Assembly (NCBI GenBank): GCA_963966185.1
Contig: CAWZYM010000131.1
Span: 62,001-126,000, forward strand
Direction: 5' to 3'
DNA from: Rhabditoides inermis
Lineage: Eukaryota; Nematoda; Chromadorea; Rhabditida; Rhabditidae
Length of the DNA: 64,000 bases
A program made the position numbers and the translations under genes. Below, in pieces: positions 32 to 57,645 of the stretch. Numbering within the stretch: position 1 is the stretch's first letter; each line of letters begins with the position of its first letter. The notes beneath the pieces were generated by a model that was not told the origin of the DNA, did no database searches, and saw only the letters and a program-made list of their open reading frames with translations.

Positions 32-87
32 TCTCTACCTACAGTATATGGTAAGGCGAATTTCTCTGGAACGCCACTTTAAGCTTC

Positions 88-105
88 ATTTGCATATATG
101 CAAAT
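88..105. promoter_or_regulatory. Octamer palindrome (C-type heads)
   Basis: ATTTGCATATATGCAAAT is a perfect 18-bp palindrome made of two facing octamers (ATTTGCAT/ATGCAAAT). In known systems this is a POU-domain factor site found in snRNA distal enhancers. It recurs 60-75 bp from the 5' end of C-type elements and of the chimeric heads E8, E14 and E20. A, B and D heads keep only one half (CATTTGCATAT). Confidence 0.5.
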
Positions 106-167
106 TTCTCGATGATGTAATGGTACAAGGGGACCGAGGACGATGCCAAGATGTCAGCAAAATCCTC

Positions 168-246
168 TGCCCGCACCGGGATCGAACCCGTGGGTGCGGC
201 AGATCGAGGCGCGCCCGTGCGCCTTAGACCACTACACCACTTGGGC
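168..246 (-). tRNA. tRNA-like Pol III unit (Leu-like, degenerate), E1
   Basis: On the minus strand an A box TGGTGTAGTGG and B box GGTTCGATCCC flank the anticodon-like hairpin AGGCGC/GCGCCT and a long variable arm. This recalls class II tRNA (AGTGGTCTAAGGC is Leu-like). TTTT follows within about 10 bases, as expected for Pol III termination. Acceptor pairing is limited to about 4 bp (GCCC/GGGC) and the anticodon loop is not 7 nt, so a functional tRNA is unlikely. Confidence 0.5.
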
Positions 247-414
247 TGTGTGAGCGGTGTGTGAGAGAGCGATGAGGACAGCGCGCGTCGGGCGATAGCG
301 TGTGAATGAGTGTGAATAGACGTTAAATAGGCTGTGTGCTGGTACAATCGATGCTATAATGGATGGAACATGTGGTAAACTATTTAGACACGTTATTGCA
401 ATACGTCACTGCTT

Positions 415-455
415 GATATCGATTAGATATCGATTGATATCGATTGATTGCAAGT
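415..455. promoter_or_regulatory. GATATCGATT repeat cluster
   Basis: Three near-perfect GATATCGATT repeats, self-complementary around ATCGAT. Clusters of one to three occur in every element between the minus-strand tRNA-like unit and the cargo (for example 4,108-4,131 and 36,736-36,750). They resemble DRE/BEAF-type TATCGATA sites; the function here is unknown. Confidence 0.4.
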
Positions 456-525
456 GATTTCTGTGTATTGTGTATGTGACCGAGCGGGCCGAGACGAGTG
501 CAGGCTTTGCGGGAGGCTGCGCGTA

Positions 526-600
526 GCCACCATTGCTCAGGCGATAGAGCGTCCGCATGTCAAGCAGACCGTGCCGGGTTCGAATCCCGTCTGGCTCAGA
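526..600 (+). tRNA. tRNA-like unit P1 (Asp-like, anticodon GTC), E1
   Basis: D arm GCTC...GAGC, anticodon loop ATGTCAA (GTC) and B box GGTTCGAATCC are all present, and TTTT follows. The acceptor can pair as AGCCA/TGGCT, but five bases instead of two separate it from the D stem. It is therefore tRNA-derived rather than a clean tRNA. The D loop has GCGATAG where other copies have GCGGTAG. Confidence 0.48.
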
Positions 601-665
601 ATATTTTGCTTTCTTTAGACAAGTGTCAGAAGGATAGTGAATGGGTTTTGAGCGCATGAGAACGT

Positions 666-738
666 CTCTCGGATAGTGTAGTGGCTATGATGCGGGCGTA
701 TCAAGTGAGTGTCCGGGGTTCGAATCCCGCTGCTCCCA
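666..738 (+). tRNA. tRNA-like unit P2 (Glu/Asp-like head), E1
   Basis: A box TAGTGTAGTGG and B box GGTTCGAATCC fit consensus, and TTTTT follows within 6 bases of TGCTCCCA. The 5' CTCTCGGATAGTGTAGTGGCT resembles Glu/Asp tRNA heads. No regular anticodon stem and no acceptor pairing are visible. Confidence 0.42.
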
Positions 739-821
739 AATGTTTTTGCCCATGTCTTTATGATTTTTGCACTTTTTTAAAAGAGTTTCCACTACATTTT
801 TTTCACTCCCTCAACCCAAAA

Positions 822-987
822 GCGGGGGGTGCGGGGGGCGGCAGCCCCCCGATGCAACCAAAAAAAGAGAGAAGAAGCGGGGGGTGCGGGGGGCGGCAGC
901 CCCCCAATGCAACCAAAAAAGAGAGAAGAAGCGGGGGGTGCGGGGGGCGGCAGCCCCCCGATGCAACCAAAAAAGAGAGAAGAAGCG
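822..987 (+). repeat. G-hairpin tandem repeat (3 units), E1
   Basis: About 55-bp units of the form GCGGGGGGTGCGGGGGG, CGGCAGCCCCCCGATGCAA, then an A/G spacer. Each unit can form a GGGGGGC/GCCCCCC hairpin and carries two G6 runs. Equivalent blocks: 34,447-34,612, 44,355-44,520, 45,481-45,650 and 51,912-52,080 (3 units each); 47,635-47,855 and 54,062-54,282 (4 units each). The short C-type elements have one unit. Confidence 0.85.
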
Positions 988-1067
988 GGGGGGGGGGGGG
1001 GGGGGGGCGAGGGGGGCGGAGCCCCCTCGGCGGGGGGGTCCAAGGGGGGGCGGCAGCCCCCCCTTGA
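988..1067 (+). repeat. Terminal G-rich hairpin box, E1
   Basis: Poly-G interrupted by CGAGGGGGGCGGAGCCCCC, TCGGCGGGGGGGTCCAAG and GGGGGGGCGGCAGCCCCCCC, ending TTGAGGTAAAA. It comprises two GC-rich palindromes plus several G-quadruplex-capable runs. Comparable boxes occur in nearly all elements, 90-150 bp before CTAG. They are truncated in E26 and E31 (and shortened in the A-type elements), and missing from E28 and E33. Run length is the main difference between copies. Confidence 0.8.
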
Positions 1068-1300
1068 GGTAAAAAAAGTTTTTAGGAAATTTTCAAAAAT
1101 TTTTCACAACTAAATAAAATTTATATACTTCCACTCCCTCTAAAGCAAAAACATGCCCACTCCCAGGCTAGTCACCTACCTATAGTATATAGCAAGGGAA
1201 ATTTCTCTGTGACGCCACTATAAGCTTCATTTGCATATATTTGTGACTTTTGTAATGGCTGGTAGACTCGTGATGATGCCGAGATGTCAGCAAAATCCTT

Positions 1301-1380
1301 TGCCCGCGCCGGGAATCGAACCCGTGGGTGCGGCGAGTGTAGGCGCGCCCGTGCGCCTTAGACCACTACACCACTTGGGC
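1301..1380 (-). tRNA. tRNA-like Pol III unit, E2
   Basis: B box GGTTCGATTCC fits consensus. Variable arm ACACTCGCCGCACCC. Confidence 0.5.
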
Positions 1381-2096
1381 TTGTGTGAGCAGAGCGCGAG
1401 AGAGCAATGAGGAGGCAGCGAGGGGGCGTGGCCTGCGATAGCGCGTGTGTGTGTGTGAATGGGTGATGGCGAATGATATCGATGATTGCGCAAGGGAACA
1501 ATGCGTGGAAAGTGTTAGGAGTGATTGGGCTGATGTACTGAATACGTTTTGCATTGATATCGATTGATTAATAGTGATTAAACATATCAAATGCACGGGT
1601 TTTAATGGGTTGGTGCGTGCAATCGGCTGTAATGAAGCGGGTATGCGTCGTGGACATGTTTTGTTTGTTTCAATATTTTCTTTTTATTATATTCTTTTGT
1701 TCTAATCGCGTTTTGTCACTTTGATATGCGTTTAATATCAAAATAATCGCTTGAAACGCGTTTCGCAAAAACATCGTGTTTCGTTGTGCGGTGTGTATGG
1801 TGTAGCACAGTGAAGATGACAATTCAATCAGCTGCGTGCGTGTTTTTGTTTATTTCTTTGTTTTGCGATGTTTTTATAAGGTAATTTGTGTTGTAATGTG
1901 TTTTATAATTTTTGTCGATACCAATTTGACGTGCTGTATGCGTTTGTATTGCGTGTCGCACTCGTTTAGTCGCGTTTTCGCACATCATGCAATTTCGAAT
2001 GTTTTTGAATTTCGTTGATTTTGTTGTTGTTCTGTATTGCGTTGTTGTTTTATTAGTTTGCAACGTGTTCTACATGTTTATTATTATTTGTTTCAG

Positions 2097-3099
2097 GGTC
2101 AACCACCAAGGACAAGCCGGTCTGCTGCTCCATCGCCGAGCCTGTGAAGGTGTGTAATTTTTTTGTTTACGTTTCACGATGTGTGATCACATTGGACCGT
2201 ATTATTATTGCGTAGTATGTTTTTGATCAATGTTCTTTGTTGTACTATTTATAATACAGTTTGTTTCAGAGCCGCTGCTCTCCATTCGGCCGCTCTTCTG
2301 CGGCATCGACGCTGGCCTGTGCGAGGTGTGCTTGTTATTGTTTTTACAGTTTGTTTTACGATGAATGATAAGTTCGAACGAGTTGTATATGTGTTGATGT
2401 GTGTTGTAATACGAATTGTTGCAGATTCGTGCTCGCGAGGACTTGCTGCCGGTCTGCTGCCCCGTCGTCATCTTCCCCGTCTTCACCAAGTTCAGGATGT
2501 GTTCGTTATTATTTTTTATTGTTGTTTTGTAAGCAAATCACAACGTGTCCAAGATGTTTAATATTGTTTGTTTCAGGGCCAACCATCAAGGACACGCCGT
2601 TTCGCTGTTGTGTCTCCGAGGCTGTGAAGGTGTGGTTTTTATTTTTTATTATGTTTTCACGATGTCTGATGACATTGGACCGTGGTATTTTTGTGTAGTT
2701 TGTTTGTGATCGTTGTACTTTGTTGTGTTATGTGCAAAACTATTTGTTTCAGAGCCGCTCCTCCTTTGTCGGCCGCTTCTCCCTCGTCCTCGACGCCGGA
2801 GTGTTCAAGGTGTGCTTGTTTTTGGAGTTTTTTTGTTGTGTCTTGTCTTGTAATACCAATTGTTGCAGACTCGCGCCTACGAGGATGGGCTGCCGGACTG
2901 CTGCGGCTGTCTCTGTTGCTCCATCGTCACCAAGTACAAGGTGTGTTCTTTATTTTTTATTCTATTGTTTTTGTGAGTGAACGTCTAACTTGTTGTTCAG
3001 GGTTCTGCTGCCGACGTTCTCCCTCTTGCTGGTGTCGGGCTCGTCGTCGCTGGACTACAAGACGAAGAAGCTCAAGACGGACGCGCTCTCGACATAAAG
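2097..3099 (+). pseudogene. Two-round micro-exon cassette, decayed (A-type, E2)
   Basis: Seven exon-like blocks separated by AT-rich introns (GTGTGT...TTTCAG or TTGCAG). Exons 1-3 and 4-6 are two rounds of one three-exon cassette: KDKPVCCSIAEPVK, S-R-C/S-S..GRF, then RA.ED.LP.CC..FTKF. Exon 2 has lost one base relative to the D-type (frameshift). The donor after exon 3 reads CAGGATGT instead of AAGGTGT. Exon 7 ends in a Lys-rich tail (LDYKTKKLKTDALST, then TAA). The family is unrecognised. It sits where E22 carries its protease/helicase gene, so it is presumably captured cargo. Not expected to encode a protein as it stands. Confidence 0.6.
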
Positions 3100-3855
3100 G
3101 TAGACGTTAATTTTCAGATTGTGTACCTATGCATAGATTGGAGTTTTGGATGTGTGGTTGTAACATTAAAAAAATATGTACACATTGTGTTGTAGTTTGT
3201 TTAAACTAATAAAACACTCTTTAGCAAACATGTTGTTGTGAATTATGGTGGTGGTTTGTGAGTTACGGTTTTGGTAGATGGAGTATTTACAAAGGATGGA
3301 GTTGGAATGATTGTAGATCAATTGATGATGTTTACTGTTTGGTTTTTTGTTCTTCCTCGACCTGCACAACGTTGATTAAGTGGACACATTGCTTGACAGA
3401 TCGTTCCATCAGCCTACAACCTACGACACAGCGGGGGCAGCGTGTCCCTTCCTTGTCCACTCCCACTCCTTCAACATGCGAGACTTCACGTTTGCGTATT
3501 GGATGCATAACTGGCTGGATCAATGATTGTAGGGGGGGTCGAGGGGGGGCGGAGCCCCCCTCGGCGGGGGGGGTCCAAGGTAAAAAAAAGGTAAAAAGGG
3601 TAAAAAAAAGGTAAAAAAGAGGTAAAAAAAAGTTGAAAACTTTTTTCAAAAAAAAACTTTTTCTACCAAAATAAAAAATATTTTTTCATTAAAAAAAACT
3701 TGTATCCACTCCCTCTCCCAGGCTAGTCTCCTACCTATAGTATATAGCAAGGGAAATTTCTCTGTGACGCCACTATAAGCTTCATTTGCATATTTTTGTG
3801 ACTTTTGTAATGGCTGGTGGACTCGTGATGATGCCGAGATGTCAGCAAAATCCTC

Positions 3856-3935
3856 TGCCCGCGCCGGGAATCGAACCCGCGAGTGCGGCGAGTGTAGGCG
3901 CGCCCGTGCGCCTTAGACCACTACACCACTTGGGC
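3856..3935 (-). tRNA. tRNA-like Pol III unit, E3
   Basis: B box GGTTCGATTCC. Variable arm ends CACTCGC rather than CACCCAC. Confidence 0.5.
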
Positions 3936-4674
3936 TTGTGTGAGCAGTGCGCGAGAGAGCAATGAGGAGGCAGCGAGGGGGCGTGGCCTGCGATAGCGCA
4001 TGGGTGTGAATGGGCGATTGCGAATGATATCGATGATTGCGCAACGGGGATGAAGGGGACAATGTGTTGGGGAGTGGTTGGGCTAATGTATTGAATAGTA
4101 TTTGCATTGATATCGATTGATATCGATTGATTCATAGTGATTAAACGTATCATTGCACGTGTTTAAATGAGTTGGTGCGTGCAATCGGCTGCGATGAAGC
4201 GGGTATGCGTTGTGGGCATGTTTTGTATGTTTCAATATTTTCTTTTTATTATATTCTTTTGTTCTAATCGCGTTTTGTCACTTTGATATGCGTTTAATAT
4301 CAAAATAATCGCTTGGAACGCGTTTCGCAAAAACATCGTGTTTCGTTGTGCGGTGTGTATGGTGTAGCACAGTGATGCACGATGATGATATATGTCAAAC
4401 AGCTGTGCGTGCGTGTTTTTGTTTATTTCTTTGTTTTGCGATGTTTTTATAATGTAATTTGTGTTGTAATGTGTTTTATAATTTTTGTCGATACTAATTT
4501 GACGTGTTGTATGCGGTTTGTATTGCGTGTCGCACTCGTTCCATCGCGTTATCACTCGCGTTGCAATTTCGAATGTTTTTGAATTTCGTTGATTTTGTTG
4601 TTGTTTTGTATTGCGTTGTTGTTTTATTAGTTCGCAACGTGTTCTACATACATGTTTATTATTATTTGTTTCAG

Positions 4675-5157
4675 GTGGATCCATGTTGGACAAGCCGATG
4701 CGCCGCGCCACCAGCAACTACAACCCGTTCAAGGTGGGTATTTTATTGCAATTTTGTCATGTATGTTTCAAATGTAACATGTTGCAGGGTTCATCATGCC
4801 GATCAAGGCTAACGGAGAGGTTCTGAAGCAGTACATTGTGATCGGCCACAAGCTGCCGAGCGAGAAGGAGGAAGATCTTCGCATTCAACGATGTTCAGGT
4901 ACGTGTATTTGCTTCGTCATTTGAAGAAGGCCAGCGGAGAGATCCTCTCGATGAAGGAGATGATTATTTTATTTAAGGTCTGCGTGGTCATCTGCAGCCC
5001 CATCGACGTCGTCACCAAGTTCAAGGTGTGTTATAATAATCATACGCCTTATTTTTGTGGGAGGATAACTTCTTGTTCAGACGCCCTTGCCGAACAAGTT
5101 TTTGATGTGTCTACGACGAGAAGCAGCTCAAGACGGAGGAGTTCTTATTTTTTAAAG
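4675..5157 (+). pseudogene. Chimeric pseudogene: micro-exon plus ribosomal protein eL20 (RPL18a) fragment (E3)
   Basis: The first exon (4,675-4,733; MLDKPMRRATSNYNPFK) belongs to the micro-exon family. After an intron, an ATG at 4,796 opens MPIKANGEVLKQYIVIGHK followed by LPSEKE. This matches the conserved N-terminus of eukaryotic ribosomal protein eL20 (MPxKA...YxVxGxKLPxEK). A second block, RYVYLLRHLKKASGEILS (4,895-4,950), matches the later eL20 segment YFxxxLxKxKKxxGEI. About 17 residues in between are missing. Downstream come a cassette-type exon (VCVVICSPIDVVTKFK) and a Lys-rich end exon. Joined in frame with exon 1 the eL20 part meets a stop, so this is a captured, non-functional fragment. 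AATAAA lies near 5,242. Confidence 0.68.
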
Positions 5158-5896
5158 GTACTCCTATTTTATTATTTTCTTCACATTTGAACACTTTTGG
5201 ATTTATTGTATATGAAAATCACGTTGTAGTTTCTTGGCGCTAATAAAATCCTCTTTAGCTCACTTGGTTGTTTTCCTTTGATGATGGTGGTGGGTTATGG
5301 GTGTGAATAGGTTGTGGATTTGGGTTGTATGTTTGATAATGTAATTATATGTTTACTGTTTGGTATTTTCGCTTCTCCTCGATCTGCACCCTGTTGACGT
5401 ATCGGGCGCATTGCGAGGGGCCGATGCGGGCCGGAGTGCGACTCGGTAGACTCCCGCTCCTCATTTTACTCAACTTAAGGCGTCTCCTCTCCCCCTATCC
5501 ACTCCCTCGGGTATGAAAACTAGCGCAACCTTCGATTTCGCACCTTGACGTATCGGACGCATAGCAGGGTGTATAAAGAAATGTAAAGGGGGGTCGAGGG
5601 GGGGCGGAGCCCCCCTCGGCGGGGGGGTCCAAGGGGGGGGGGGCGGCAGCCCCCCCTTGAGGTAAAAAAGTTGAGAACAATTATTTGAGAACTTTTTTTC
5701 TACCAAAAAAAAAACTTGTCACTCCCCTTTTCACTGTATCCACTCCCTCTCCCAGGCTAGTCTCTATCTACAGTATATGGTAAGGCGAATTTCTCCGTGA
5801 CGCGACCATAAGCGCAATTTGCATATATGCAAATTTCTCGATGATGTAATGGTACAAGGGGACCGAGGACGATGCCGAGATGTCAGCAAAATCCTC

Positions 5897-5975
5897 TGCC
5901 CGTACCGGGATCGAACCCGTGGGTGCGGCATATCGAGGCGCGCCCGTGCGCCTTAGACCACTACACCACTTGGGC
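5897..5975 (-). tRNA. tRNA-like Pol III unit, E4
   Basis: One base shorter in the T loop (B box GGTTCGATCCC). CGATATGCC in the variable arm. Confidence 0.48.
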
Positions 5976-6255
5976 TTGTGTGAGCAGAGCGCGAGAGAGC
6001 GATGAGGACAGCGCGCGTCGGGCGATAGCGTGTGAATGAGTGTGAATAGACGTTGAATAGGCTGTGTGCTGGTACAATCGATGCTATAATGGATGGAACA
6101 TGTGGTAAACTATTTAGACACGTTATTGCAATACGTCACTGCTTGATATCGATTAGATATCGATTGATATCGATTGATTGCAAGTGATTTCTGTGTATTG
6201 TGTATGTGACCGAGCGGGCCGAGACGAGTGCGGGCTTTGCGGGAGGCTGCGCGTA

Positions 6256-6330
6256 GCCACTATTGCTCAGGCGGTAGAGCGTCCGCATTTCAAGCAGACG
6301 GTGCCGGGTTCGAATCCCGTCTGGCTCAGA
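6256..6330 (+). tRNA. tRNA-like unit P1 (anticodon TTC), E4
   Basis: Anticodon loop ATTTCAA reads TTC (Glu-like) instead of GTC. T stem CGGG/CCCG. Confidence 0.48.
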
Positions 6331-6396
6331 ATAATTTGCTTTCTTTCGACAAGTGTCAGAAGGATAGTGAATGGGTTTTGAGCACATGAATACGTG

Positions 6397-6468
6397 TCCC
6401 GGGTAGTGTAGTGGCTATGATGCGGGCGCCGTAAGTGAGTGTCCGGGTTTCGAATCCCGCTGCTCCCA
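6397..6468 (+). tRNA. tRNA-like unit P2, E4
   Basis: B box damaged to GTTTCGAATCC. Middle reads GCGCCGTAAGTGAG. Confidence 0.38.
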
Positions 6469-6906
6469 AATGTTTTGCCCATGCCTTTTATGAAGTTTGC
6501 ACAAGTTTTAAAGCCTCTCCTCTCCTTTTTCCACTCCCTCAACCCAAAAGCGGGGGGTGCGGGGGGCGGCAGCCCCCCGATGCAATAAAAAGAAAGAAGA
6601 AAGGGGGGGTCGAGGGGGGGCGGAGCCCCCTCGGCGGGGGGGTCCAAGGGGGGGCGGCAGCCCCCCCTTGAGGTAAAAAAAAGTTTTTAGGAAATTTTCA
6701 AATTTTTTTCACAACTAAATAAAATTTATATACTTCCACTCCCTCTAAAGCAAAAACATGCCCACTCCCAGGCTAGTCTTCTATCTATAAGTATATCGTA
6801 AGGAAAATTTCTCTGGAACGCGACTATAAGCTTCATTTGCATATAATTGCGACTTTTGCAATGGCTGGTGGACTCGGGACGTTGCCGATATGTCAGCAAA
6901 ATCCTT

Positions 6907-6986
6907 TGCCCGTGCCGGGATTCGAACCCGCGAGTGCGGCGAGTGTAGGCGCGCCCGTGCGCCTTAGACCACTACACCACTTGGGC
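6907..6986 (-). tRNA. tRNA-like Pol III unit, E5
   Basis: B box GGTTCGAATCC is a perfect consensus match. Confidence 0.5.
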
Positions 6987-7718
6987 TTGTGTGTGCACTG
7001 TGCGAGAGAGCAATGAGGATGCAGCGAGTGGGCGTGGCCTGCGATAGCGCATGTGTGTGTGTGAATGGGTGATGGCGAATGATATCGATGATTGCGCAAC
7101 GGGGATCAAGGGGACAATGTGTTGGGGAGTGGTTGGGCTAATGCATTGAATAGTAGTTGCATTGATATCGATTGATATCGATTGATTCATAGTGATTGAA
7201 CGTATCATTGCACGTGATTAAATGAGTTGGTGCGTGCAATCGGCTGCGATGAAGCGGGTATGCGTTGTGGGCAAGTTTTGTATGTTCAATATTTTCTTTT
7301 TATTATATTCTTTTGTTCTAATCGCGTTTTGTCACTTTGATATGCGTTTAATATCAAAATAATCGCTTGAAACGCGTTTCGCAAAAACATCGTGTTTCGT
7401 TGTGCGGTGTGTATGGTGTAGCACAGTGATGATGACAATTCAATCAGCTGTGCGTGCGTGTTTTTGTTTATTTCTTTGTTTTGCGATGTTTTTATAATGT
7501 AATTTGTGTTGTAATGTGTTTTATAATTTTTGTCGATACTAATTTGACGTGTTGTATGCGTTTGTATTGCGTGTCGCACTCGTTCCATCGCGTTATCACT
7601 CGCGTTGCAATTTCGAATGTTTTTGAATTTCGTTGATTTTGTTGTTGTTTTGTATTGCGTTGTTGTTTTATTAGTTCGCAACGTGTTCTACATACATGTT
7701 TATTATTATTTGTTTCAG

Positions 7719-8201
7719 GTGGATCCATGTTGGACAAGCCGATGCGCCGCGCCACCAGCAACTACAACCCGTTCAAGGTGGGTATTTTATTGCAATTTTG
7801 TCATGTATGTTTCAAATGTAACATGTTGCAGGGTTCATCATGCCGATCAAGGCTAACGGAGAGGTTCTGAAGCAGTACATTGTGATCGGCCACAAGCTGC
7901 CGAGCGAGAAGGAGGAAGATCTTCGCATTCAACGATGTTCAGGTACGTGTATTTGCTTCGTCATTTGAAGAAGGCCAGCGGAGAGATCCTCTCGATAAAG
8001 GAGATGATTATTTTATTTAAGGTCTGCGTGGTCATCTGCAGCCCCATCGACGTCGTCACCAAGTTCAAGGTGTGTTATAATAATCATACGCCTTATTTTT
8101 GTGGGAGGATAACTTCTTGTTCAGACGCCCTTGCCGAACAAGTTTTTGATGTGTCTACGACGAGAAGCAGCTCAAGACGGAGGAGTTCTTATTTTTTAAA
8201 G
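7719..8201 (+). pseudogene. eL20-chimeric pseudogene (E5)
   Basis: As in E3 but with ATG to ATA in the second eL20 block. Confidence 0.66.
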
Positions 8202-8942
8202 GTACTCCTATTTTATTATTTTCTTCACATTTGAACACTTTTGGATTTATTGTATATGAAAATCACGTTGTAGTTTCTTGGCGCTAATAAAATCCTCTTT
8301 AGCTCACTTGGTTGTTTTCCTTTGATGATGGTGGTGGGTTATGGGTGTGAATAGGTTGTGGATTTGGGTTGTATGTTTGATAATGTAATTATATGTTTAC
8401 TGTTTGGTATTTTCGCTTCTCCTCGATCTGCACCCTGTTGACGTATCGGGCGCATTGCGAGGGGCCGATGCGGGCCGGAGTGCGACTCGGTAGACTCCCG
8501 CTCCTCATTTTACTCAACTTAAGGCGTCTCCTCTCCCCCTATCCACTCCCTCGGGTATGAAAACTAGCGCAACCTTCGATTTCGCACCTTGACGTATCGG
8601 ACGCATAGCAGGGTGTATAAAGAAATGTAAAGGGGGGTCGAGGGGGGGCGGAGCCCCCCTCGGCGGGGGGGTCCAAGGGGGGGGGGGGCGGCAGCCCCCC
8701 CTTGAGGTAAAAAAGTTGAGAACAATTATTTGAGAACTTTTTTTCTACCAAAAAAAAAAACTTGTCACTCCCCTTTTCACTGTATCCACTCCCTCTCCCA
8801 GGCTAGTCTCTATCTACAGTATATGGTAAGGCGAATTTCTCCGTGACGCGACCATAAGCGCAATTTGCATATATGCAAATTTCTCGATGATGTAATGGTA
8901 CAAGGGGACCGAGGACGATGCCGAGATGTCAGCAAAATCCTC

Positions 8943-9021
8943 TGCCCGTACCGGGATCGAACCCGTGGGTGCGGCATATCGAGGCGCGCCCGTGCGCCTT
9001 AGACCACTACACCACTTGGGC
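8943..9021 (-). tRNA. tRNA-like Pol III unit, E6
   Basis: Same short T-loop form as in E4. Confidence 0.48.
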
Positions 9022-9301
9022 TTGTGTGAGCAGAGCGCGAGAGAGCGATGAGGACAGCGCGCGTCGGGCGATAGCGTGTGAATGAGTGTGAATAGACGTT
9101 GAATAGGCTGTGTGCTGGTACAATCGATGCTATAATGGATGGAACATGTGGTAAACTATTTAGACACGTTATTGCAATACGTCACTGCTTGATATCGATT
9201 AGATATCGATTGATATCGATTGATTGCAAGTGATTTCTGTGTATTGTGTATGTGACCGAGCGGGCCGAGACGAGTGCGGGCTTTGCGGGAGGCTGCGCGT
9301 A

Positions 9302-9376
9302 GCCACTATTGCTCAGGCGGTAGAGCGTCCGCATTTCAAGCAGACGGTGCCGGGTTCGAATCCCGTCTGGCTCAGA
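9302..9376 (+). tRNA. tRNA-like unit P1 (TTC), E6
   Basis: Same as E4. Confidence 0.48.
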
Positions 9377-9442
9377 ATAATTTGCTTTCTTTCGACAAGT
9401 GTCAGAAGGATAGTGAATGGGTTTTGAGCACATGAATACGTG

Positions 9443-9514
9443 TCCCGGGTAGTGTAGTGGCTATGATGCGGGCGCCGTAAGTGAGTGTCCGGGTTTCGAA
9501 TCCCGCTGCTCCCA
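9443..9514 (+). tRNA. tRNA-like unit P2, E6
   Basis: Same damaged B box as E4. Confidence 0.38.
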
Positions 9515-9952
9515 AATGTTTTGCCCATGCCTTTTATGAAGTTTGCACAAGTTTTAAAGCCTCTCCTCTCCTTTTTCCACTCCCTCAACCCAAAAGCGGG
9601 GGGTGCGGGGGGCGGCAGCCCCCCGATGCAATAAAAAGAAAGAAGAAAGGGGGGGTCGAGGGGGGGCGGAGCCCCCTCGGCGGGGGGGTCCAAGGGGGGG
9701 CGGCAGCCCCCCCTTGAGGTAAAAAAAAGTTTTTAGGAAATTTTCAAATTTTTTTCACAACTAAATAAAATTTATATACTTCCACTCCCTCTAAAGCAAA
9801 AACATGCCCACTCCCAGGCTAGTCTTCTATCTATAAGTATATCGTAAGGAAAATTTCTCTGGAACGCGACTATAAGCTTCATTTGCATATAATTGCGACT
9901 TTTGCAATGGCTGGTGGACTCGGGACGTTGCCGATATGTCAGCAAAATCCTT

Positions 9953-10032
9953 TGCCCGTGCCGGGATTCGAACCCGCGAGTGCGGCGAGTGTAGGCGCGC
10001 CCGTGCGCCTTAGACCACTACACCACTTGGGC
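9953..10032 (-). tRNA. tRNA-like Pol III unit, E7
   Basis: Same form as E5, perfect B box. Confidence 0.5.
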
Positions 10033-47414: not shown

Positions 47415-47479
47415 AATGTTTTGCTTTCTTTCGACAAGTGTCAGAGGGATAGTGAACGGGTTTTGAGCGCATGAGAACG

Positions 47480-47553
47480 TCTCCCGGATAGTGTAGTGGC
47501 TATGATGCGGGCGTGTCAAGTGAGTGTCCGGGGTTCGAATTCCGCTGCTCCCA
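47480..47553 (+). tRNA. tRNA-like unit P2, E26
   Basis: B box GGTTCGAATTC has one mismatch. Middle reads GCGTGTCAAGTGAG. Confidence 0.4.
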
Positions 47554-48067
47554 AATGTTTTTGCCCATGTCTTTTATGAATTTTGCACAAGTTTTAAAGC
47601 CTTTCCTCTCTCATTTTCACTCCCTCAACCCAAAAGCGGGGGGTGCGGGGGGCGGCAGCCCCCCGATGCAACCAAAAAAGAGAGAAAAAAGCGGGGGGTG
47701 CGGGGGGCGGCAGCCCCCGATGCAACCAAAAAAAGAGAGAAAAAAGCGGGGGGTGCGGGGGGCGGCAGCCCCCCGATGCAACCAATAAAAAGAGAAAGAA
47801 GCGGGGGGTGCGGGGGGCGGCAGCCCCCCGATGCAATAAAAAAGAGAGAAGAAGCGGGGGGTCGAGGGGGGCGTAAAACAAAAGCAAAGATAAATTTCCA
47901 CTCCCTCTAAAGCAAAAACATGGCCACTCCCAGGCTAGTCTCCTACCTATAGTATATAGCAAGGGAAATTTCTCCGGAACGTCACTATAAGCTTCATTTG
48001 CATATTTTTGTGACTTTTGTAATGGCTGGTGGACTCGTGATGATGCCGAGATGTCAGCAAAATCCTT

Positions 48068-48147
48068 TGCCCGTGCCGGGATTCGAACCGGTGGGTGTGG
48101 CGAGTGTAGGCGCGCCCGTGCGCCTTAGACCACTACACCACTTGGGC
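48068..48147 (-). tRNA. tRNA-like Pol III unit, E27
   Basis: B box perfect; the T stem is altered to CCGG on its 5' side. Confidence 0.48.
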
Positions 48148-48873
48148 TTGTGCGAGCAGAGCGCGAGAGAGCAATGAGGATGCAGCGAGAGGGCGTGGCC
48201 TGCGATAGCGCACGTGTGTGTGAATGGGTGATGGCGCATGATATCGATGATTGCGCAACGAGGATGAAGAGGACAATGTGTGCAAAGTGTTGGGGAGTGA
48301 TTGGGCTGATGTAATGAATACGTTTTGCATTGATATCGATTGATTAATAGTGATTAAACATATCAAATGCACGGGTTTTAATGGGTTGGTGCGTGCAATC
48401 GGCTTTAATGAAGCGGGTATGCGTCGTGGACATGTTTTGTTTGTTTCAATATTTTCTTTTTATTATATTCTTTTGTTCTAATCGCGTTTTGTCACTTTGA
48501 TATGCGTTTAATATCAAAATAATCGCTTGAAACGCGTTTCGCAAAAACATCGTGTTTCGTTGTGCGGTGTATGGTGTAGCACAGTGATGATGACAATTCA
48601 AACAGCTGTGCGTGCGTGTTTTTGTTTATTTCTTTGTTTTGCGATGTTTTTATTATGTAATTTGTGGTGTAATGTGTTTTATAATTTTTGTCGATACTTA
48701 TTTGACGTGCTGTATGCGTTTGTATTGCGTGTCGCACTCGTTCCATCGCGTTATCACTCGCATTGCAATTTCGAATGTTTTTGAATTTCGTTGATTTTGT
48801 TGTTGTTTTGTATTGCGTTGTTGTTTTTATTAGTTTGCAACGTGTTCTACATGTTTATTATTATTCATTTCAG

Positions 48874-49433
48874 GGTGATCAAAGTTGGACAAGCCGGCTG
48901 CGTCGTGCGGCGACGGAACCGAGGCGTTCAAGGTGCGTGTTATTTATTTAATTTTGTTTACGTTTCATTATGCTCATTGCACTGTGTTCTTCTTATGTCG
49001 TATGTTTGTGATCGTTGTACTATGCACAATACAGTGTCTTTCAGAGCAACACCTCTCCAATCGGCCGCTTCTTCTGCCGCATCGACGCCATCGTGTTCAA
49101 GGTGTGTTTGGTTTTCTGTCATGTTTCATATAGTTTTATGTTAAATTAGTTACTAAATTGCTTTGTGTTGTACTTCAGTTGTTGTGTTTTGTAATACAAA
49201 TTGTTGCAGTCTTTCGTCTACGGGGACGTGCTGCCCGTCTGCTGCCCCGTCGTCACCGAGTTCAAGGTATGTTGTATATTATATTTTATTGTTTTTTTTC
49301 TCCAATTTGTGAGCTATCGTCACATGTTGTTCAAGGCTCCCCTGTTCTGCTCCCTGCTCGTGTAGGGCGTCGTCGCTGGACTAGAAGAAGAAGAAGCTCA
49401 AGTCGGACGCGGACGCACTCTCGACGGTTCGAG
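48874..49433 (+). pseudogene. Micro-exon cassette (D-type, E27)
   Basis: Exons give KLDKPAASCGDGTEAFK, SNTSPIGRFFCRIDAIVFK, SFVYGDVLPVCCPVVTEFK and APLFCSLLV-stop. The frame is open through all four exons, but no ATG precedes it (an in-frame TGA lies just upstream). Coding only if an upstream or trans-spliced exon supplies a start. Confidence 0.5.
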
Positions 49434-49750
49434 GTAGACGCTCATTTTATTAATTTGTTTACATTAATTGACTAGAATTTTGATGTGTATTTGTAGTATC
49501 GAAACATACATTGTGTTGTAGTTTAATGGACCAAATAAAACTCTCTTTAGCTCACTTGTTGTTATGATATGATTGTGATGGTGGGTTGCGGGGTACGGTA
49601 TTGGTAATGGATTTGGGATTGATTCAGAATGATTGTGATTTTTGTTATTTTACTGTTTGGTCGTGTTTTATCCTCCTCGAGCAGCACCCCGTTGACGCAT
49701 CGGACGCACAGCAGACTGTACGATTCACTCGAAGGGGGGGCAGGGGGGTC

Positions 49751-49845
49751 CACTCCCTCAACCACTCCTCAACCACTCCCTTAACCACTCCCTCAACCAC
49801 TCCCTCAACCACTCCCTCAACCACTCCCTCAACCACTCGCTTATC
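49751..49845 (+). repeat. 12-bp minisatellite, E27 tail
   Basis: Shorter (about 7 units), with one 11-bp unit CACTCCTCAAC. Confidence 0.9.
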
Positions 49846-50239
49846 CTCTTCCTCGGGTATGAAAACTACCTCAAACCGCGATAATGCACTTTGACGAAAC
49901 GGCAGAATAGCAGGGCGTTGGAATATGTGAATAGAGGGGGGGGGGGGGGGTCGAGGGGGGGCAGAGCCCCCCTCGGCGGGGGGGTCCAAGGGGGGGCGGC
50001 AGCCCCCCCTTGAGATAAAAAAAGTTTTGATGAATTTTCAAATTTGTTTTTTAAATTTCAAGAATAGTATTTTCACTCCAAACAAAAACTCATTGCCACT
50101 CCCAGGCTAGTCTCCTACCTATAGTATATAGCAAGGGAAATTTCTCCGTGACGCGACTATAAGCTTCATTTGCATATTTTTGCGACTTTTGTAATGGCTG
50201 GTGGACTCGTGATGATGCCGAGATGTCAGCAAAATCCTT

Positions 50240-50319
50240 TGCCCGCGCCGGGATTCGAACCCGTGGGTGCGGCGAGTGTAGGCGCGCCCGTGCGCCTTAG
50301 ACCACTACACCACTTGGGC
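50240..50319 (-). tRNA. tRNA-like Pol III unit, E28
   Basis: Perfect B box GGTTCGAATCC. Confidence 0.5.
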
Positions 50320-51043
50320 TTGTGTCAGCAGAGCGCGAGAGAGCAATGAGGATGCAGCGAGGGGGCGTGGCCTGCGATAGCGCATGTGTGTGAATGGGTG
50401 TGAATGGGCGATTGCGAATGATATCGATGATTGCGCAACGGGGATGAAGGGGACAATGTGTTGGGGAGTGGTTGGGCTAATGTATTGAATAGTATTTGCA
50501 TTGATATCGATTGATTAATAGTGATTAAACATATCAAATGCACGGGGTTTAATGGGTTGGTGCGTGCAATCGGCTGTAATGAAGCGGGTATGCGTCGTGG
50601 ACATGTTTTGTTTGTTTCAATATTTTCTTTTTATTATATTCTTTTGTTCTAATCGCGTTTTCTCACTTTGATATGCGTTCAATATCAAAATAATCGCTTG
50701 AAACGCGTTTCGCAAAAACATCGTGTTTCGTTGTGCGGTGTATGGTGTAGCACAGTGATGATGACAATTCAAACAGCTGTGCATGCGTGTTTTTGTTTAT
50801 TTCTTTGTTTTGCGATGTTTTTATTATGTAATTTGTGTTGTAATGTGTTTTATAATTTTTGTCGATACCAATTTGACGTGTTGTATGCGTTTGTCTTGCG
50901 TGTCGCACTCGTTTAGTCGCGTTTTCGCACATCATGCAATTTCGAATGTTTTTGAATTTCGTTGATTTTGTTGTTGTTTTGTATTGCGTTGTTGTTTTAT
51001 TAGTTTGCAACGTGTTCTACATGTTTATTATAATTTGTTTCAG

Positions 51044-51103
51044 CCCGTCCTTGCCGAACAAACCGATGCGCGGCGGCACCAGCAACCACCACAACGCGTC
51101 AAG
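51044..51103 (+). pseudogene. Single cassette exon (E28)
   Basis: Encodes SLPNKPMRGGTSNHHNASR between TTTCAG and GTGGGTG. Related to exon 1 of the eL20 chimeras. The rest of its gene is lost at the duplication junction. Confidence 0.5.
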
Positions 51104-51257
51104 GTGGGTGTTAGTCTCTAGTCTCTACCTACAGTATGTGGTAAGCCGAATTTCTCCGTGACGCGACCATAAGCGCAATTTGCATATATGCAAATTTCTC
51201 GATGATGTAATGGTACAAGGGGACCGAGGACGATGCCGAGATGTCAGCAAAATCCTC

Positions 51258-51337
51258 TGCCCGTACCGGGAATCGAACCCGTGGGTGCGGCAGATCGAGG
51301 CGCGCCCTTGCGCCTTAGACCACTACACCACTTGGGC
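51258..51337 (-). tRNA. tRNA-like Pol III unit, E29
   Basis: Same as E24. Confidence 0.5.
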
Positions 51338-51617
51338 TTGTGTGAGCAGAGCGCGAGAGAGCGATGAGGACAGCGCGCGTCGGGCGATAGCGTGTGAATG
51401 AGTGTGAATAGACGTTGAATAGGCTGTGTGCTGGTACAATCGATGCTATAATGGATGGAACATGTGGTAAACTATTTAGACACGTTATTGCAATACGTCA
51501 CTGCTTGATATCGATTAGATATCGATTGATATCGATTGATTGCAAGTGATTTCTGTGTATTGTGTATGTGACCGAGCGGGCCGAGACGAGTGCGGGCTTT
51601 GCGGGAGGCTGCGCGTA

Positions 51618-51692
51618 GCCACTATTGCTCAGGCGGTAGAGCGTCTGCCTGTCAAGCAGACGGTCCCAGGTTCGAATACCGTCTGGCTCAGA
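51618..51692 (+). tRNA. tRNA-like unit P1 (GTC), E29
   Basis: Same as E24. Confidence 0.48.
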
Positions 51693-51756
51693 ATGTTTTG
51701 CTTTCTTTCGACAAGTGTCAGAGGGATAGTGAACGGGTTTTGAGCGCATGAGAACG

Positions 51757-51830
51757 TCTCCCGGATAGTGTAGTGGCTATGATGCGGGCGTATCAAGTGA
51801 GTGTCCGGGGTTCGAATCCCGCTGCTCCCA
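51757..51830 (+). tRNA. tRNA-like unit P2, E29
   Basis: Same as E24. Confidence 0.42.
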
Positions 51831-52389
51831 AATGTTTTTGCCCATGTCTTTATGATTTTTGCACTATTTTAAAAGAGTTTCCACTACATTTTTTCACTCC
51901 CTCAACCCAAAAGCGGGGGGTGCGGGGGGCGGCAGCCCCCCGATGCAACCAAAAAAAGAGAGAAGAAGCGGGGGGTGCGGGGGGCGGCAGCCCCCCGATG
52001 CAACCAAAAAAGAGAGAAGAAGCGGGGGGTGCGGGGGGCGGCAGCCCCCCGATGCAACCAAAAAAGAGAGAAGAAGCGGGGGGGGGTCGAGGGGGGCGGA
52101 GCCCCCTCGGCGGGGGGGTCCAAGGGGGGGCGGCAGCCCCCCCTTGAGGTAAAAAAAAAGTTTTTTAGAAATTTTCAAAATTTTTTCACAACTAAATAAA
52201 ATTTATATACTTCCACTCCCTCTAAAGCAAAAACATGGCCACTCCCAGGCTAGTCTCTATCTACAGTATATGGTAAGGCGAATTTCTCTGGAACGCCACT
52301 TTAAGCTTCATTTGCATATATGCAAATTTCCAGATGATGTAATGGTATAGGGGGATAGAGGACGATGCCAAGATGTCAGCAAAATCCTC

Positions 52390-52468
52390 TGCCCGTACCG
52401 GGATCGAACCCGTGGGTGCGGCAGATCGAGGCGCGCCCGTGCGCCTTAGACCACTACACCACTTGGGC
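52390..52468 (-). tRNA. tRNA-like Pol III unit, E30
   Basis: Same as E25. Confidence 0.48.
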
Positions 52469-52749
52469 TTGTGTGAGCAGAGCGCGAGAGAGCGATGAGG
52501 ACAGCGCGCGTCGGGGCGATAGCGTGTGAATGAGTGTGAATAGACGTTGAATAGGCTGTGTGCTGGTACAATCGATGCTATAATGGATGGAACATGTGGT
52601 AAACTATTTAGACACGTGATTGCAATACGTCAATGCTTGATATCGATTAGATATCGATTGATATCGATTGATTGCAAGTGATTTCTGTGTATTGTGTATG
52701 TGACCGAGCGGGCCGAGACGAGTGCGGGCTTTGCGGGAGGCTGCGCGTA

Positions 52750-52824
52750 GCCACTATTGCTCAGGCGGTAGAGCGTCCGCATGTCAAGCAGACGGTGCCG
52801 GGTTCGAATCCCGTCTGGCTCAGA
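52750..52824 (+). tRNA. tRNA-like unit P1 (GTC), E30
   Basis: Same as E25. Confidence 0.48.
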
Positions 52825-52890
52825 ATATTTTGCTTTCTTTCGACAAGTGTCAGAAGGATAGTGAATGGGTTTTGAGCACATGAATACGTG

Positions 52891-52962
52891 TCCCGGGTAG
52901 TGTAGTGGCTATGATGCGGGCGCCGTAAGTGAGTGTCCGGGGTTCGAATCCCGCTGCTCCCA
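52891..52962 (+). tRNA. tRNA-like unit P2, E30
   Basis: Same as E25. Confidence 0.42.
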
Positions 52963-53410
52963 AATGTTTTGCCCATGCCTTTTATGAAGTTTGCACAAGT
53001 TTTAAAGCCTCTCCTCTCCTTTTTCCACTCCCTCAACCCAAAAGCGGGGGGTGCGGGGGGCGGCAGCCCCCCGATGCAATAAAAAGAAAGAAGAAAGGGG
53101 GGGGGGGTCGAGGGGGGGCGGAGCCCCCCTCGGCGGGGGGGTCCAAGGGGGGGCGGCAGCCCCCCCTTGAGGTGAAAAAAAGTTTTTAGAAAATTTTCAA
53201 AACTTTTTCACAACCAAATAAAATTTATATATTTCCATTCCCCTTTGCATAAAAACATGGCCACTCCCAGGCTAGTCTCCTACCTACAGTATATGAAAGT
53301 CGAAATTTCTCTGTCACGCGACTCTAGCTCATTTGCATATATGCAAATTTCGCGATGATGTAATGGTACAAGGGGACCGAGGACGATGCTGAGATGTCAG
53401 CAAAATCCTC

Positions 53411-53489
53411 TGCCCGCACCGGGATCGAACCCGTGGGTGCGGCAGATCGAGGCGCGCCCGTGCGCCTTAGACCACTACACCACTTGGGC
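53411..53489 (-). tRNA. tRNA-like Pol III unit, E31
   Basis: Same as E26. Confidence 0.48.
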
Positions 53490-53768
53490 TGTGTGCGCAG
53501 GGCGCGAGAGAGCGATGAGGACAGCGCGCGTCGGGCGATAGCGTGTGAATGAGTGTGAATAGACGTTGAATAGGCTGTGTGCTGGTACAATCGATGCTAT
53601 AATGGATGGAACATGTGGTAAACTATTTAGACACGTGATTGCAATACGTCACTGCTTGATATCGATTAGATATCGATTGATATCGATGGATTGCAACTGA
53701 TTTCTGTGTATTGTGTATGTGAACGAGCGGGCCGAGACGAGTGCGGGCTTTGCGGGAGGCAGCGCGTA

Positions 53769-53843
53769 GCCACTAATTGCTCAGGCGGTAGAGCGTCTGC
53801 CTGTCAAGCAGACGGTCCCAGGTTCGAATACCGTCTGGCTCAG
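53769..53843 (+). tRNA. tRNA-like unit P1 (GTC), E31
   Basis: Same as E26. Confidence 0.46.
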
Positions 53844-53908
53844 AATGTTTTGCTTTCTTTCGACAAGTGTCAGAGGGATAGTGAACGGGTTTTGAGCGCA
53901 TGAGAACG

Positions 53909-53982
53909 TCTCCCGGATAGTGTAGTGGCTATGATGCGGGCGTGTCAAGTGAGTGTCCGGGGTTCGAATTCCGCTGCTCCCA
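53909..53982 (+). tRNA. tRNA-like unit P2, E31
   Basis: Same as E26. Confidence 0.4.
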
Positions 53983-54494
53983 AATGTTTTTGCCCATGTC
54001 TTTTATGAATTTTGCACAAGTTTTAAGCCTTTCCTCTCTCATTTTCACTCCCTCAACCCAAAAGCGGGGGGTGCGGGGGGCGGCAGCCCCCCGATGCAAC
54101 CAAAAAAGAGAGAAAAAAGCGGGGGGTGCGGGGGGCGGCAGCCCCCGATGCAACCAAAAAAAGAGAGAAAAAAGCGGGGGGTGCGGGGGGCGGCAGCCCC
54201 CCGATGCAACCAATAAAAAGAGAAAGAAGCGGGGGGTGCGGGGGGCGGCAGCCCCCCGATGCAATAAAAAAGAGAGAAGAAGCGGGGGGTCGAGGGGGGC
54301 GTAAAACAAAAGCAAAGATAAATTTCCACTCCCTCTAAAGCAAAACATGGCCACTCCCAGGCTAGTCTCCTACCTATAGTATATAGCAAGGGAAATTTCT
54401 CCGGAACGCCACTATAAGCTTCATTTGCATATTTTTGTGACTTTTGTAATGGCTGGTGGACTCGTGATGATGCCGAGATGTCAGCAAAATCCTT

Positions 54495-54574
54495 TGCCCG
54501 TGCCGGGATTCGAACCGGTGGGTGTGGCGAGTGTAGGCGCGCCCGTGCGCCTTAGACCACTACACCACTTGGGC
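54495..54574 (-). tRNA. tRNA-like Pol III unit, E32
   Basis: Same as E27. Confidence 0.48.
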
Positions 54575-55300
54575 TTGTGCGAGCAGAGCGCGAGAGAGCA
54601 ATGAGGATGCAGCGAGAGGGCGTGGCCTGCGATAGCGCACGTGTGTGTGAATGGGTGATGGCGCATGATATCGATGATTGCGCAACGAGGATGAAGAGGA
54701 CAATGTGTGCAAAGTGTTGGGGAGTGATTGGGCTGATGTAATGAATACGTTTTGCATTGATATCGATTGATTAATAGTGATTAAACATATCAAATGCACG
54801 GGTTTTAATGGGTTGGTGCGTGCAATCGGCTTTAATGAAGCGGGTATGCGTCGTGGACATGTTTTGTTTGTTTCAATATTTTCTTTTTATTATATTCTTT
54901 TGTTCTAATCGCGTTTTGTCACTTTGATATGCGTTTAATATCAAAATAATCGCTTGAAACGCGTTTCGCAAAAACATCGTGTTTCGTTGTGCGGTGTATG
55001 GTGTAGCACAGTGATGATGACAATTCAAACAGCTGTGCGTGCGTGTTTTTGTTTATTTCTTTGTTTTGCGATGTTTTTATTATGTAATTTGTGGTGTAAT
55101 GTGTTTTATAATTTTTGTCGATACTTATTTGACGTGCTGTATGCGTTTGTATTGCGTGTCGCACTCGTTCCATCGCGTTATCACTCGCATTGCAATTTCG
55201 AATGTTTTTGAATTTCGTTGATTTTGTTGTTGTTTTGTATTGCGTTGTTGTTTTTATTAGTTTGCAACGTGTTCTACATGTTTATTATTATTCATTTCAG

Positions 55301-55860
55301 GGTGATCAAAGTTGGACAAGCCGGCTGCGTCGTGCGGCGACGGAACCGAGGCGTTCAAGGTGCGTGTTATTTATTTAATTTTGTTTACGTTTCATTATGC
55401 TCATTGCACTGTGTTCTTCTTATGTCGTATGTTTGTGATCGTTGTACTATGCACAATACAGTGTCTTTCAGAGCAACACCTCTCCAATCGGCCGCTTCTT
55501 CTGCCGCATCGACGCCATCGTGTTCAAGGTGTGTTTGGTTTTCTGTCATGTTTCATATAGTTTTATGTTAAATTAGTTACTAAATTGCTTTGTGTTGTAC
55601 TTCAGTTGTTGTGTTTTGTAATACAAATTGTTGCAGTCTTTCGTCTACGGGGACGTGCTGCCCGTCTGCTGCCCCGTCGTCACCGAGTTCAAGGTATGTT
55701 GTATATTATATTTTATTGTTTTTTTTCTCCAATTTGTGAGCTATCGTCACATGTTGTTCAAGGCTCCCCTGTTCTGCTCCCTGCTCGTGTAGGGCGTCGT
55801 CGCTGGACTAGAAGAAGAAGAAGCTCAAGTCGGACGCGGACGCACTCTCGACGGTTCGAG
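55301..55860 (+). pseudogene. Micro-exon cassette (E32)
   Basis: Same as E27. Confidence 0.5.
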
Positions 55861-56177
55861 GTAGACGCTCATTTTATTAATTTGTTTACATTAATTGACT
55901 AGAATTTTGATGTGTATTTGTAGTATCGAAACATACATTGTGTTGTAGTTTAATGGACCAAATAAAACTCTCTTTAGCTCACTTGTTGTTATGATATGAT
56001 TGTGATGGTGGGTTGCGGGGTACGGTATTGGTAATGGATTTGGGATTGATTCAGAATGATTGTGATTTTTGTTATTTTACTGTTTGGTCGTGTTTTATCC
56101 TCCTCGAGCAGCACCCCGTTGACGCATCGGACGCACAGCAGACTGTACGATTCACTCGAAGGGGGGGCAGGGGGGTC

Positions 56178-56272
56178 CACTCCCTCAACCACTCCTCAAC
56201 CACTCCCTTAACCACTCCCTCAACCACTCCCTCAACCACTCCCTCAACCACTCCCTCAACCACTCGCTTATC
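56178..56272 (+). repeat. 12-bp minisatellite, E32 tail
   Basis: Same as E27. Confidence 0.9.
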
Positions 56273-56662
56273 CTCTTCCTCGGGTATGAAAACTACCTCA
56301 AACCGCGATAATGCACTTTGACGAAACGGCAGAATAGCAGGGCGTTGGAATATGTGAATAGAGGGGGGGGGGGTCGAGGGGGGGCAGAGCCCCCCTCGGC
56401 GGGGGGGTCCAAGGGGGGGCGGCAGCCCCCCCTTGAGATAAAAAAAGTTTTGATGAATTTTCAAATTTGTTTTTTAAATTTCAAGAATAGTATTTTCACT
56501 CCAAACAAAAACTCATTGCCACTCCCAGGCTAGTCTCCTACCTATAGTATATAGCAAGGGAAATTTCTCCGTGACGCGACTATAAGCTTCATTTGCATAT
56601 TTTTGCGACTTTTGTAATGGCTGGTGGACTCGTGATGATGCCGAGATGTCAGCAAAATCCTT

Positions 56663-56742
56663 TGCCCGCGCCGGGATTCGAACCCGTGGGTGCGGCGAGT
56701 GTAGGCGCGCCCGTGCGCCTTAGACCACTACACCACTTGGGC
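56663..56742 (-). tRNA. tRNA-like Pol III unit, E33
   Basis: Same as E28. Confidence 0.5.
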
Positions 56743-57466
56743 TTGTGTCAGCAGAGCGCGAGAGAGCAATGAGGATGCAGCGAGGGGGCGTGGCCTGCGA
56801 TAGCGCATGTGTGTGAATGGGTGTGAATGGGCGATTGCGAATGATATCGATGATTGCGCAACGGGGATGAAGGGGACAATGTGTTGGGGAGTGGTTGGGC
56901 TAATGTATTGAATAGTATTTGCATTGATATCGATTGATTAATAGTGATTAAACATATCAAATGCACGGGGTTTAATGGGTTGGTGCGTGCAATCGGCTGT
57001 AATGAAGCGGGTATGCGTCGTGGACATGTTTTGTTTGTTTCAATATTTTCTTTTTATTATATTCTTTTGTTCTAATCGCGTTTTCTCACTTTGATATGCG
57101 TTCAATATCAAAATAATCGCTTGAAACGCGTTTCGCAAAAACATCGTGTTTCGTTGTGCGGTGTATGGTGTAGCACAGTGATGATGACAATTCAAACAGC
57201 TGTGCATGCGTGTTTTTGTTTATTTCTTTGTTTTGCGATGTTTTTATTATGTAATTTGTGTTGTAATGTGTTTTATAATTTTTGTCGATACCAATTTGAC
57301 GTGTTGTATGCGTTTGTCTTGCGTGTCGCACTCGTTTAGTCGCGTTTTCGCACATCATGCAATTTCGAATGTTTTTGAATTTCGTTGATTTTGTTGTTGT
57401 TTTGTATTGCGTTGTTGTTTTATTAGTTTGCAACGTGTTCTACATGTTTATTATAATTTGTTTCAG

Positions 57467-57526
57467 CCCGTCCTTGCCGAACAAACCGATGCGCGGCGGC
57501 ACCAGCAACCACCACAACGCGTCAAG
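57467..57526 (+). pseudogene. Single cassette exon (E33)
   Basis: Same as E28. Slightly more downstream intron is retained before the sequence becomes unrelated. Confidence 0.5.
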
Positions 57527-57645
57527 GTGGGTGTTTTCTTGTAATTTTGTTTCACCCCGTATGCTGTATGCTCCCCCCCCCAATTTTTTGTTGACTTTAA
57601 AGTGATGCAAGGAGATAGTAAATGGGTTTTGATCACATGGAACTT

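Follow-up and report, generated by a model that had tools for sequence, protein, structure and literature searches.

We analysed a 64,000-bp stretch of the genome of the nematode Rhabditoides inermis (assembly GCA_963966185.1), positions 62,001-126,000 of contig CAWZYM010000131.1 (C131), hereafter the window, which is occupied by Helitrons lying head to tail and joined directly, the CTAG end of one element to the TC start of the next. A first-pass annotation had described here an array of 33 Helitron-like elements between positions 32 and 57540. The array and its 33 joins are real: the window contains 33 CTAGTC sites, whereas 100 first-order shuffles had 6.3 on average and never more than 12, and 32 of the 33 have the form CCCAGGCTAG|TC. 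The extent was wrong, however, because the joins continue along C131 beyond both sides of the window. Genome-wide counts given below cover the 172.6-Mb assembly of 599 contigs. Its COX1 shows 96% identity to a cluster bearing the name of Litoditis and 93% to one bearing that of Caenorhabditis briggsae, which indicates a rhabditid host that is probably close to Litoditis.

The array in the window

Judged from the CTAGTC sites, the window holds elements E1-E32 together with the initial 7.5 kb of E33 (32..64000, plus strand). The joins, given as the first base of CTAG on this strand, lie at 28, 1168, 3723, 5757, 6773, 8803, 9819, 11991, 14557, 16590, 17607, 19636, 20652, 22824, 25387, 27421, 28438, 30466, 31484, 33655, 34787, 36346, 43729, 44687, 45820, 46843, 47935, 50107, (51118), 52250, 53272, 54362 and 56530. 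Position 32 is not where the array starts, as the CTAG at 28-31 that forms the left edge of E1 is itself a join. Likewise, E33 (56534..64000 in the window, plus strand) does not end at 57,540 as proposed; the next CCCAGGCTAG on this strand is at C131:134,475 (72,475 on the window scale), so that the element measures about 15.9 kb. Element starts are also more varied than the two forms originally listed, with TCACC, TCTTC and TCTCTATC present besides TCTCCTACC and TCTCTACC.

Two sets of tandem duplications are present. A six-element block (clusters 3 5 1 5 1 2, as defined below) is present in three tandem copies of 10.82-10.83 kb (1172..33658, plus strand; copies 1172-11994, 11995-22827 and 22828-33658), with pairwise identities of 99.57, 99.60 and 99.95%, and a 6.43-kb block is present twice with 99.86% identity (44691..57545, plus strand; E24-E28, then E29 to the start of E33). 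The edge of the second block coincides with the one irregular join. Of the 32 internal joins from E1/E2 to E32/E33, 31 carry CCCAGGCTAG and E28/E29 does not: E28 (50111..51121, plus strand) stops at ...GGTGGGTGTT, where its duplicate E33, 99.86% identical, runs on into other sequence. E28 is therefore a truncated element and its CTAG is not a Helitron terminus, a comparison that also ruled out an alternative terminator. This CTAG (51,118) sits within a 7-bp direct duplication, AGTCTCT-AGTCTCT, which suggests a truncation scar left by end joining at the edge of the block duplication.

Between positions 1 and 60000 of the window, G exceeds C on the plus strand by 0.086-0.184 in 14 of 15 four-kb steps, the remaining one being near zero, and T exceeds A in most steps. 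On C131 two runs of joins in opposite orientation lie side by side, one at 24,667-53,744 (minus strand) and the other from 56,166 onward (plus strand).

The joins are not restricted to this contig. Exact matches to CTCCCAGGCTAG number 186 in the assembly, at least two of them (L020 and L021) being part of a repeat not related to the elements, and the join pattern CCCAGGCTAG|TCTC...TACC has 95 exact matches. When both patterns were reversed as a control, 4 and 0 matches were obtained, respectively. The contigs with joins number at least ten (C131, C139, C151, C154, C240, C250, C311, C403, C418 and C420), and clusters of two and three elements in host DNA occur there besides long arrays. Two joins, at L017 (minus strand 9711) and L056:219, read CTA|TC without the final G and would be either imprecise joins or one-base losses. 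Immediately left of the start of the C139 array there is a run of N (L012, about 1990-2000), which may be a gap.

The elements and their proteins

For comparison we sampled 94 elements of the main group from the window, loci L001-L008 and further fetched stretches, leaving aside elements longer than 9 kb (E33), those lacking a start in the stretch, and two other kinds of element, H and G. They fall into 12 clusters (reciprocal coverage >85%, identity ≥90%), with finer labels assigned at 98.5%. TC is the start of 93 of the 94, the exception being C131-46, whose start is diverged or mis-set; CTAG was a selection criterion, with which the boundaries of solitary copies agree. The main types resemble each other over some 60-75 bp at the start and 9-12 bp at the end, and all printed types end in CCAGGCTAG.

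The hairpin that canonical Helitrons have some 10-15 bp before their 3' end is absent, as the first-pass annotation had noticed: in none of the printed element types is there a stem of at least 6 bp within the last 22 bp. A few types have stems of A and T only at 23-40 bp from the 3' end, and one stem, at 40 bp, includes a single G. The strong hairpin that had been placed 90-150 bp upstream is indeed upstream, but this G+C-rich structure lies at approximately 58-121 bp in most types and at 136-164 bp in a few, whereas the short 437/583-bp type has a 6-bp stem and no strong hairpin. Several family 1 elements carry near their 3' end a 54-55-bp tandem repeat of varying copy number with a G-run/C-run hairpin (window 820-1001, 34446, 44356, 45480, 47632, 51911 and 54060). 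ARAGORN reported a tRNA-like segment in 26 of the 94 elements and made 12 such calls in the window, where five Rfam matches were barely at the cut-off (29.2 vs 29).

At least three end-types are present in the arrays. The H element (2,128 bp, TCATTGG...GATGCTAG) shares about 36 bp of internal sequence with the main elements, and exact joins link it with a further H-type end and with a main element; H-type starts follow six main-element ends. That H is joined exactly despite so little similarity suggests that exact joining does not depend on long shared ends. The G type (TCTCCCATCC...CTAACGCTAG, 1,214 and 1,559 bp), which is related to the main group at 74-81%, is joined in the same way. These further types lie at L033 (minus strand 417-2545), L022 (minus strand 4663-5877) and L038:432-1991.

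The single replicase-helicase initially attributed to the array is encoded by E22 (36350..43732, plus strand, 7,383 bp), and this coding sequence is broken. Its first open frame (38589..40748, plus strand, 719 amino acids) encodes a C48 (Ulp1-like) protease (PF02902, E 1.4e-05), and the second (40736..43195, plus strand, 819 amino acids) the Rep tyrosine motif and a PIF1-like helicase (PF05970, E 5.8e-47; Helraiser 7lcc, E 4.1e-110). E22 does encode Rep/helicase sequence, but it lacks the segment matching residues 726-1103 of the intact C139 protein, in which the HUH motif is located.

Intact genes are found nearby and in two other arrays. E33 contains an uninterrupted protease-Rep-helicase open reading frame (ORF) of 1,904 amino acids (66,241-71,952 on the window scale), 91.7% identical to the C139 protein, with the sequences PHCH, YISKYLTKG and GSGGTGKT, which we take to be the HUH, tyrosine and helicase motifs. 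The C139 ORF (L013:3471-9227, 1,919 amino acids, in an 8,374-bp element) matches Helitron_like_N (PF14214, E 3.4e-38), PIF1 (PF05970, E 1.9e-46) and peptidase C48 (E 2e-05), the C48 scan having covered this protein and E22, and C151 encodes a protein of 1,985 amino acids in an 8,584-bp element (L015-L016). Compared with Helraiser 7lcc the C139 protein scores E 2e-165; its C48-like N-terminal part, which weakly resembles sentrin-specific protease 8 chains (E 3e-05), falls outside the aligned stretches. A Pfam scan of the same protein detected neither an OTU nor an endonuclease domain at E ≤ 0.01, and a search with query words from its first 500 residues, that is, the N-terminal part, returned no relative at E ≤ 1e-20. 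Judged by titles alone, none of the literature surveyed describes a Helitron combining C48, Rep and helicase. Since intact copies exist, their proteins could act in trans on E22 and on the short elements.

The Helitron identity originally proposed holds. A Rep with HUH and tyrosine motifs fused to a PIF1-like helicase is present in the C139 and E33 proteins, the ends are TC...CTAG, and empty sites show no target duplication. The evidence supports that these elements are Helitrons, but non-canonical ones.

Neighbours and insertion sites

The direct joins had been explained by rolling-circle copying past the terminator, in which adjacent units would be copies of one element. They are generally not, which leaves this explanation mostly unsupported: 58 of the 72 sampled joins unite different clusters, and only 2 of 56 distinct label pairs are near-identical neighbours, 2e|2e (2 differences in 2,163 bp) and 1c|1c (10 differences plus 2 gap bases).

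Moreover, the same unit recurs in several settings. With zero differences, 2f (1,959 bp) lies between 3e and 1b in C240 and between 4e and host DNA in C250, and 3b (2,539 bp) lies inside the C151 array and alone in C112. Units 1g and 1h (1,137 and 1,018 bp) each occur twice in C151, and 4b (2,013 bp) twice in C139, again with zero differences. In C151 both 1g|4a and 1g|1h|11a|4a occur, the 1g copies being identical and the 4a copies one indel base apart, as if these were an empty and a filled join that two elements had entered. Across loci, 15 pairs of units at least 98.5% identical share no main-family neighbour; direct comparison was possible in three of these pairs (four comparisons), the remaining 12 having, on each side, one copy or both next to host DNA, a different end-type or sequence that was not read.

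The comparison of single copies with empty sites that the first-pass annotation had called for confirmed the element boundaries. Four solitary elements in host DNA (C20, C112, C231 and C258) have the ends of array units, and joined flanks are found uninterrupted elsewhere. For C20, a copy 10 kb away matches the joined flanks at 180 of 180 bases. The C112 element sits in a repeat, 40 scored copies of which (from 441 candidates; alignments not printed) run through the join at 93-95%, and in C154 an element interrupts a host minisatellite, the remaining units of which, judged by eye, show the empty site. Target-site duplications are absent at the C20, C112 and C154 sites, where a T or TC common to both edges can be assigned from the DNA to neither host nor element.

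Element edges against host DNA were then reduced to 16 on each side. From 22 right edges we removed L020 and L021 (CTGCTCCCAGGCTAG|ACGCGG, the unrelated repeat), L029, L041, L053 and L054 (joins to H) and L050 (the same flank as L049), and added the G-type element in L022; L043 (CTAG|CG, diverged) was kept and is the sole non-T edge. From 27 left edges we removed L037, discussed below, and ten joins of other kinds, namely E29 in the window, L017 and L056 (CTA|TC), and L033, L038, L050, L054, L057, L058 and L060, which follow GCTAG ends of other families.

Host right flanks begin with T in 15 of 16 cases (TC 10, TT 5) and have T as third base in 10 of 16, while the left base is G in 8, T in 4, A in 3 and C in 1. 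Against assumed base frequencies the p values are 3e-7 for the right T, 0.013 for the left G (assumed 22%) and 0.009 for the third T. The expected host T on the right was thus found, but the expected A on the left mostly was not, and the target fits approximately G|TYT rather than the canonical A|T. Helentrons and Helitron2 are characterised by an endonuclease or OTU domain, subterminal inverted repeats and a T-rich target; here the target is T-Y-T and the ends are TC...CTAG. Since A|T is not the target of this group, joins without an intervening host A or T do not speak for read-through. G|TYT-like sequence is also what a join or the left end of an element offers.

Origin of the arrays and comparison with known systems

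Given that joins are exact, that neighbours are mixed, that single units recur in different surroundings, that the target is biased and that empty sites and block duplications exist, we find it moderately probable that single elements insert preferentially at resident ends and that blocks are duplicated afterwards. The Rep of a few large autonomous elements would copy single elements from TC to CTAG, and the copies would enter 5' of a T-pyrimidine, usually TYT, with G favoured in front (G|TYT). Because element left ends and existing joins (CTAG|TCT) match this target, new copies would land disproportionately at resident ends and in the same orientation, producing exact CTAG|TC joins between unrelated elements. 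Later duplication of multi-element blocks (10.83 kb three times, 6.43 kb twice) would lengthen the arrays. The array stretch holds 17,603 T and 3,186 TC, and the joins nevertheless fall at ends. Preferential insertion at resident ends would be the cause of the arrays, and Rep presumably the targeting agent. In a stronger form, which we hold tentatively as something short of probable, Rep would prefer its own cleavage site, including the CTAG|TC of residents and of unrelated compatible Helitrons, giving shared, growing and directional multi-family arrays.

Several observations weigh against insertion at ends. No insertion event was seen directly, the process being read from the pattern of the sequence, and the G preference is based on 16 host sites. 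At L037 (about 341; C131 near 57,242) an element begins within sequence that resembles internal parts of a family-4 element at 84%, so that either a nested insertion or a truncation would have occurred there, not at an element end. It was the only match when flanks of up to 600 bp of 33 edges, to which the nesting check applies, were compared with the elements, the other 32 giving none, and we accordingly dropped the reading that no element lies inside another. The L037 case and the lower G count once its left base is removed (8 of 16 instead of 9 of 17) slightly reduce our confidence in insertion at ends. Of the 15 cross-locus pairs, the 2c copies in C418 and C418b, 17 kb apart, share their left H neighbour, and the two near-identical neighbour pairs fit read-through.

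Recombination is the rival that we take most seriously, although we judge it unlikely. Transposition would only seed the arrays, and unequal exchange or excised circles acting through the shared termini would shuffle and expand them. The main families are alike at both ends, so that units could travel as modules by recombining through joins, and tandem blocks 99.57-99.95% and 99.86% identical resemble unequal exchange. Moving one unchanged unit between contigs, however, needs a double exchange within short shared ends, the unrelated H is not easily placed, and recombination with circles predicts chimeras where we found letter-identical units.

Pre-formed groups might instead move together, a copy spanning the first TC to the second CTAG of an adjacent pair. 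Such composite transposition, which seems to us rather doubtful, is compatible with the tandem block duplications and with the neighbour shared in C418 and C418b, but all four available neighbour comparisons differed, a weak test given that they involve 3 of the 15 cross-locus pairs.

Rolling-circle read-through, in which the helicase passes the 3' end and concatemers are copied and inserted whole, appears improbable as a general explanation. There is no hairpin beside CTAG, and in Helraiser hairpin loss raises read-through (PMC4778049); read-through may explain 2e|2e and 1c|1c. It predicts runs of one element where different clusters are joined, it does not fit identical units with different neighbours, and joins lacking a host A follow from a target that is not A|T. 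As for an assembly artefact, repeats of 10 kb more than 99.5% identical are hard to assemble, but we consider this very improbable, given that ten or more contigs have joins, some of them within small clusters of two or three elements in host DNA.

If insertion is indeed directed to resident ends, it would let a transposon spare host genes. The intact protease-Rep-helicase genes, together with letter-identical recent copies, offer a natural system for studying Helitron target choice.

PMC6927752 and PMC3789558, in the parts available, make no mention of Helitron arrays, and a non-exhaustive survey of partly available literature found no array this long of mixed, mostly complete Helitrons. Long mixed stacks look like a new form of a known phenomenon, an adjacent pair having been described before: in maize, the different Helitrons No.1 and No.2 are joined exactly as CTAG|TC, and consecutive insertion was inferred, with a G|T site as one option (PMC2267711). 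That is a single pair. The present arrays are many, contain dozens of elements and no fewer than three end-types, and come with a host target bias that was counted. Tandem Helitrons have also been cited for the bat Myotis lucifugus and the silkworm Bombyx mori, and plant centromeres are cited as having truncated arrays (PMC4067079, PMC5876387, PMC5148889). They are likewise head to tail with direct joins, but they were ascribed to termination bypass or rolling-circle replication and the plant units are truncated, whereas the present units are mostly complete and of mixed families. CTAG|TC joins and tandem Helitrons have been cited as support for rolling-circle transposition (PMC5876387); since the same joins are here better explained by insertion at ends, a join alone is weak evidence for read-through.

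Helraiser (PMC4778049, PMC5876387) is alike in Rep-helicase homology, TC...CTAG ends and a CTAG|TC circle junction. FoHeli of Fusarium, of the Helitron2 type, uses a target other than A|T and inserts into itself, and three tandem copies were reported once, in a Metarhizium (PMC5148889); its termini differ, its target is TNAT|A, and the part of that paper available describes no long arrays. Arrays built by a self-targeting Helitron could be likened to the gene cassettes at an integron.

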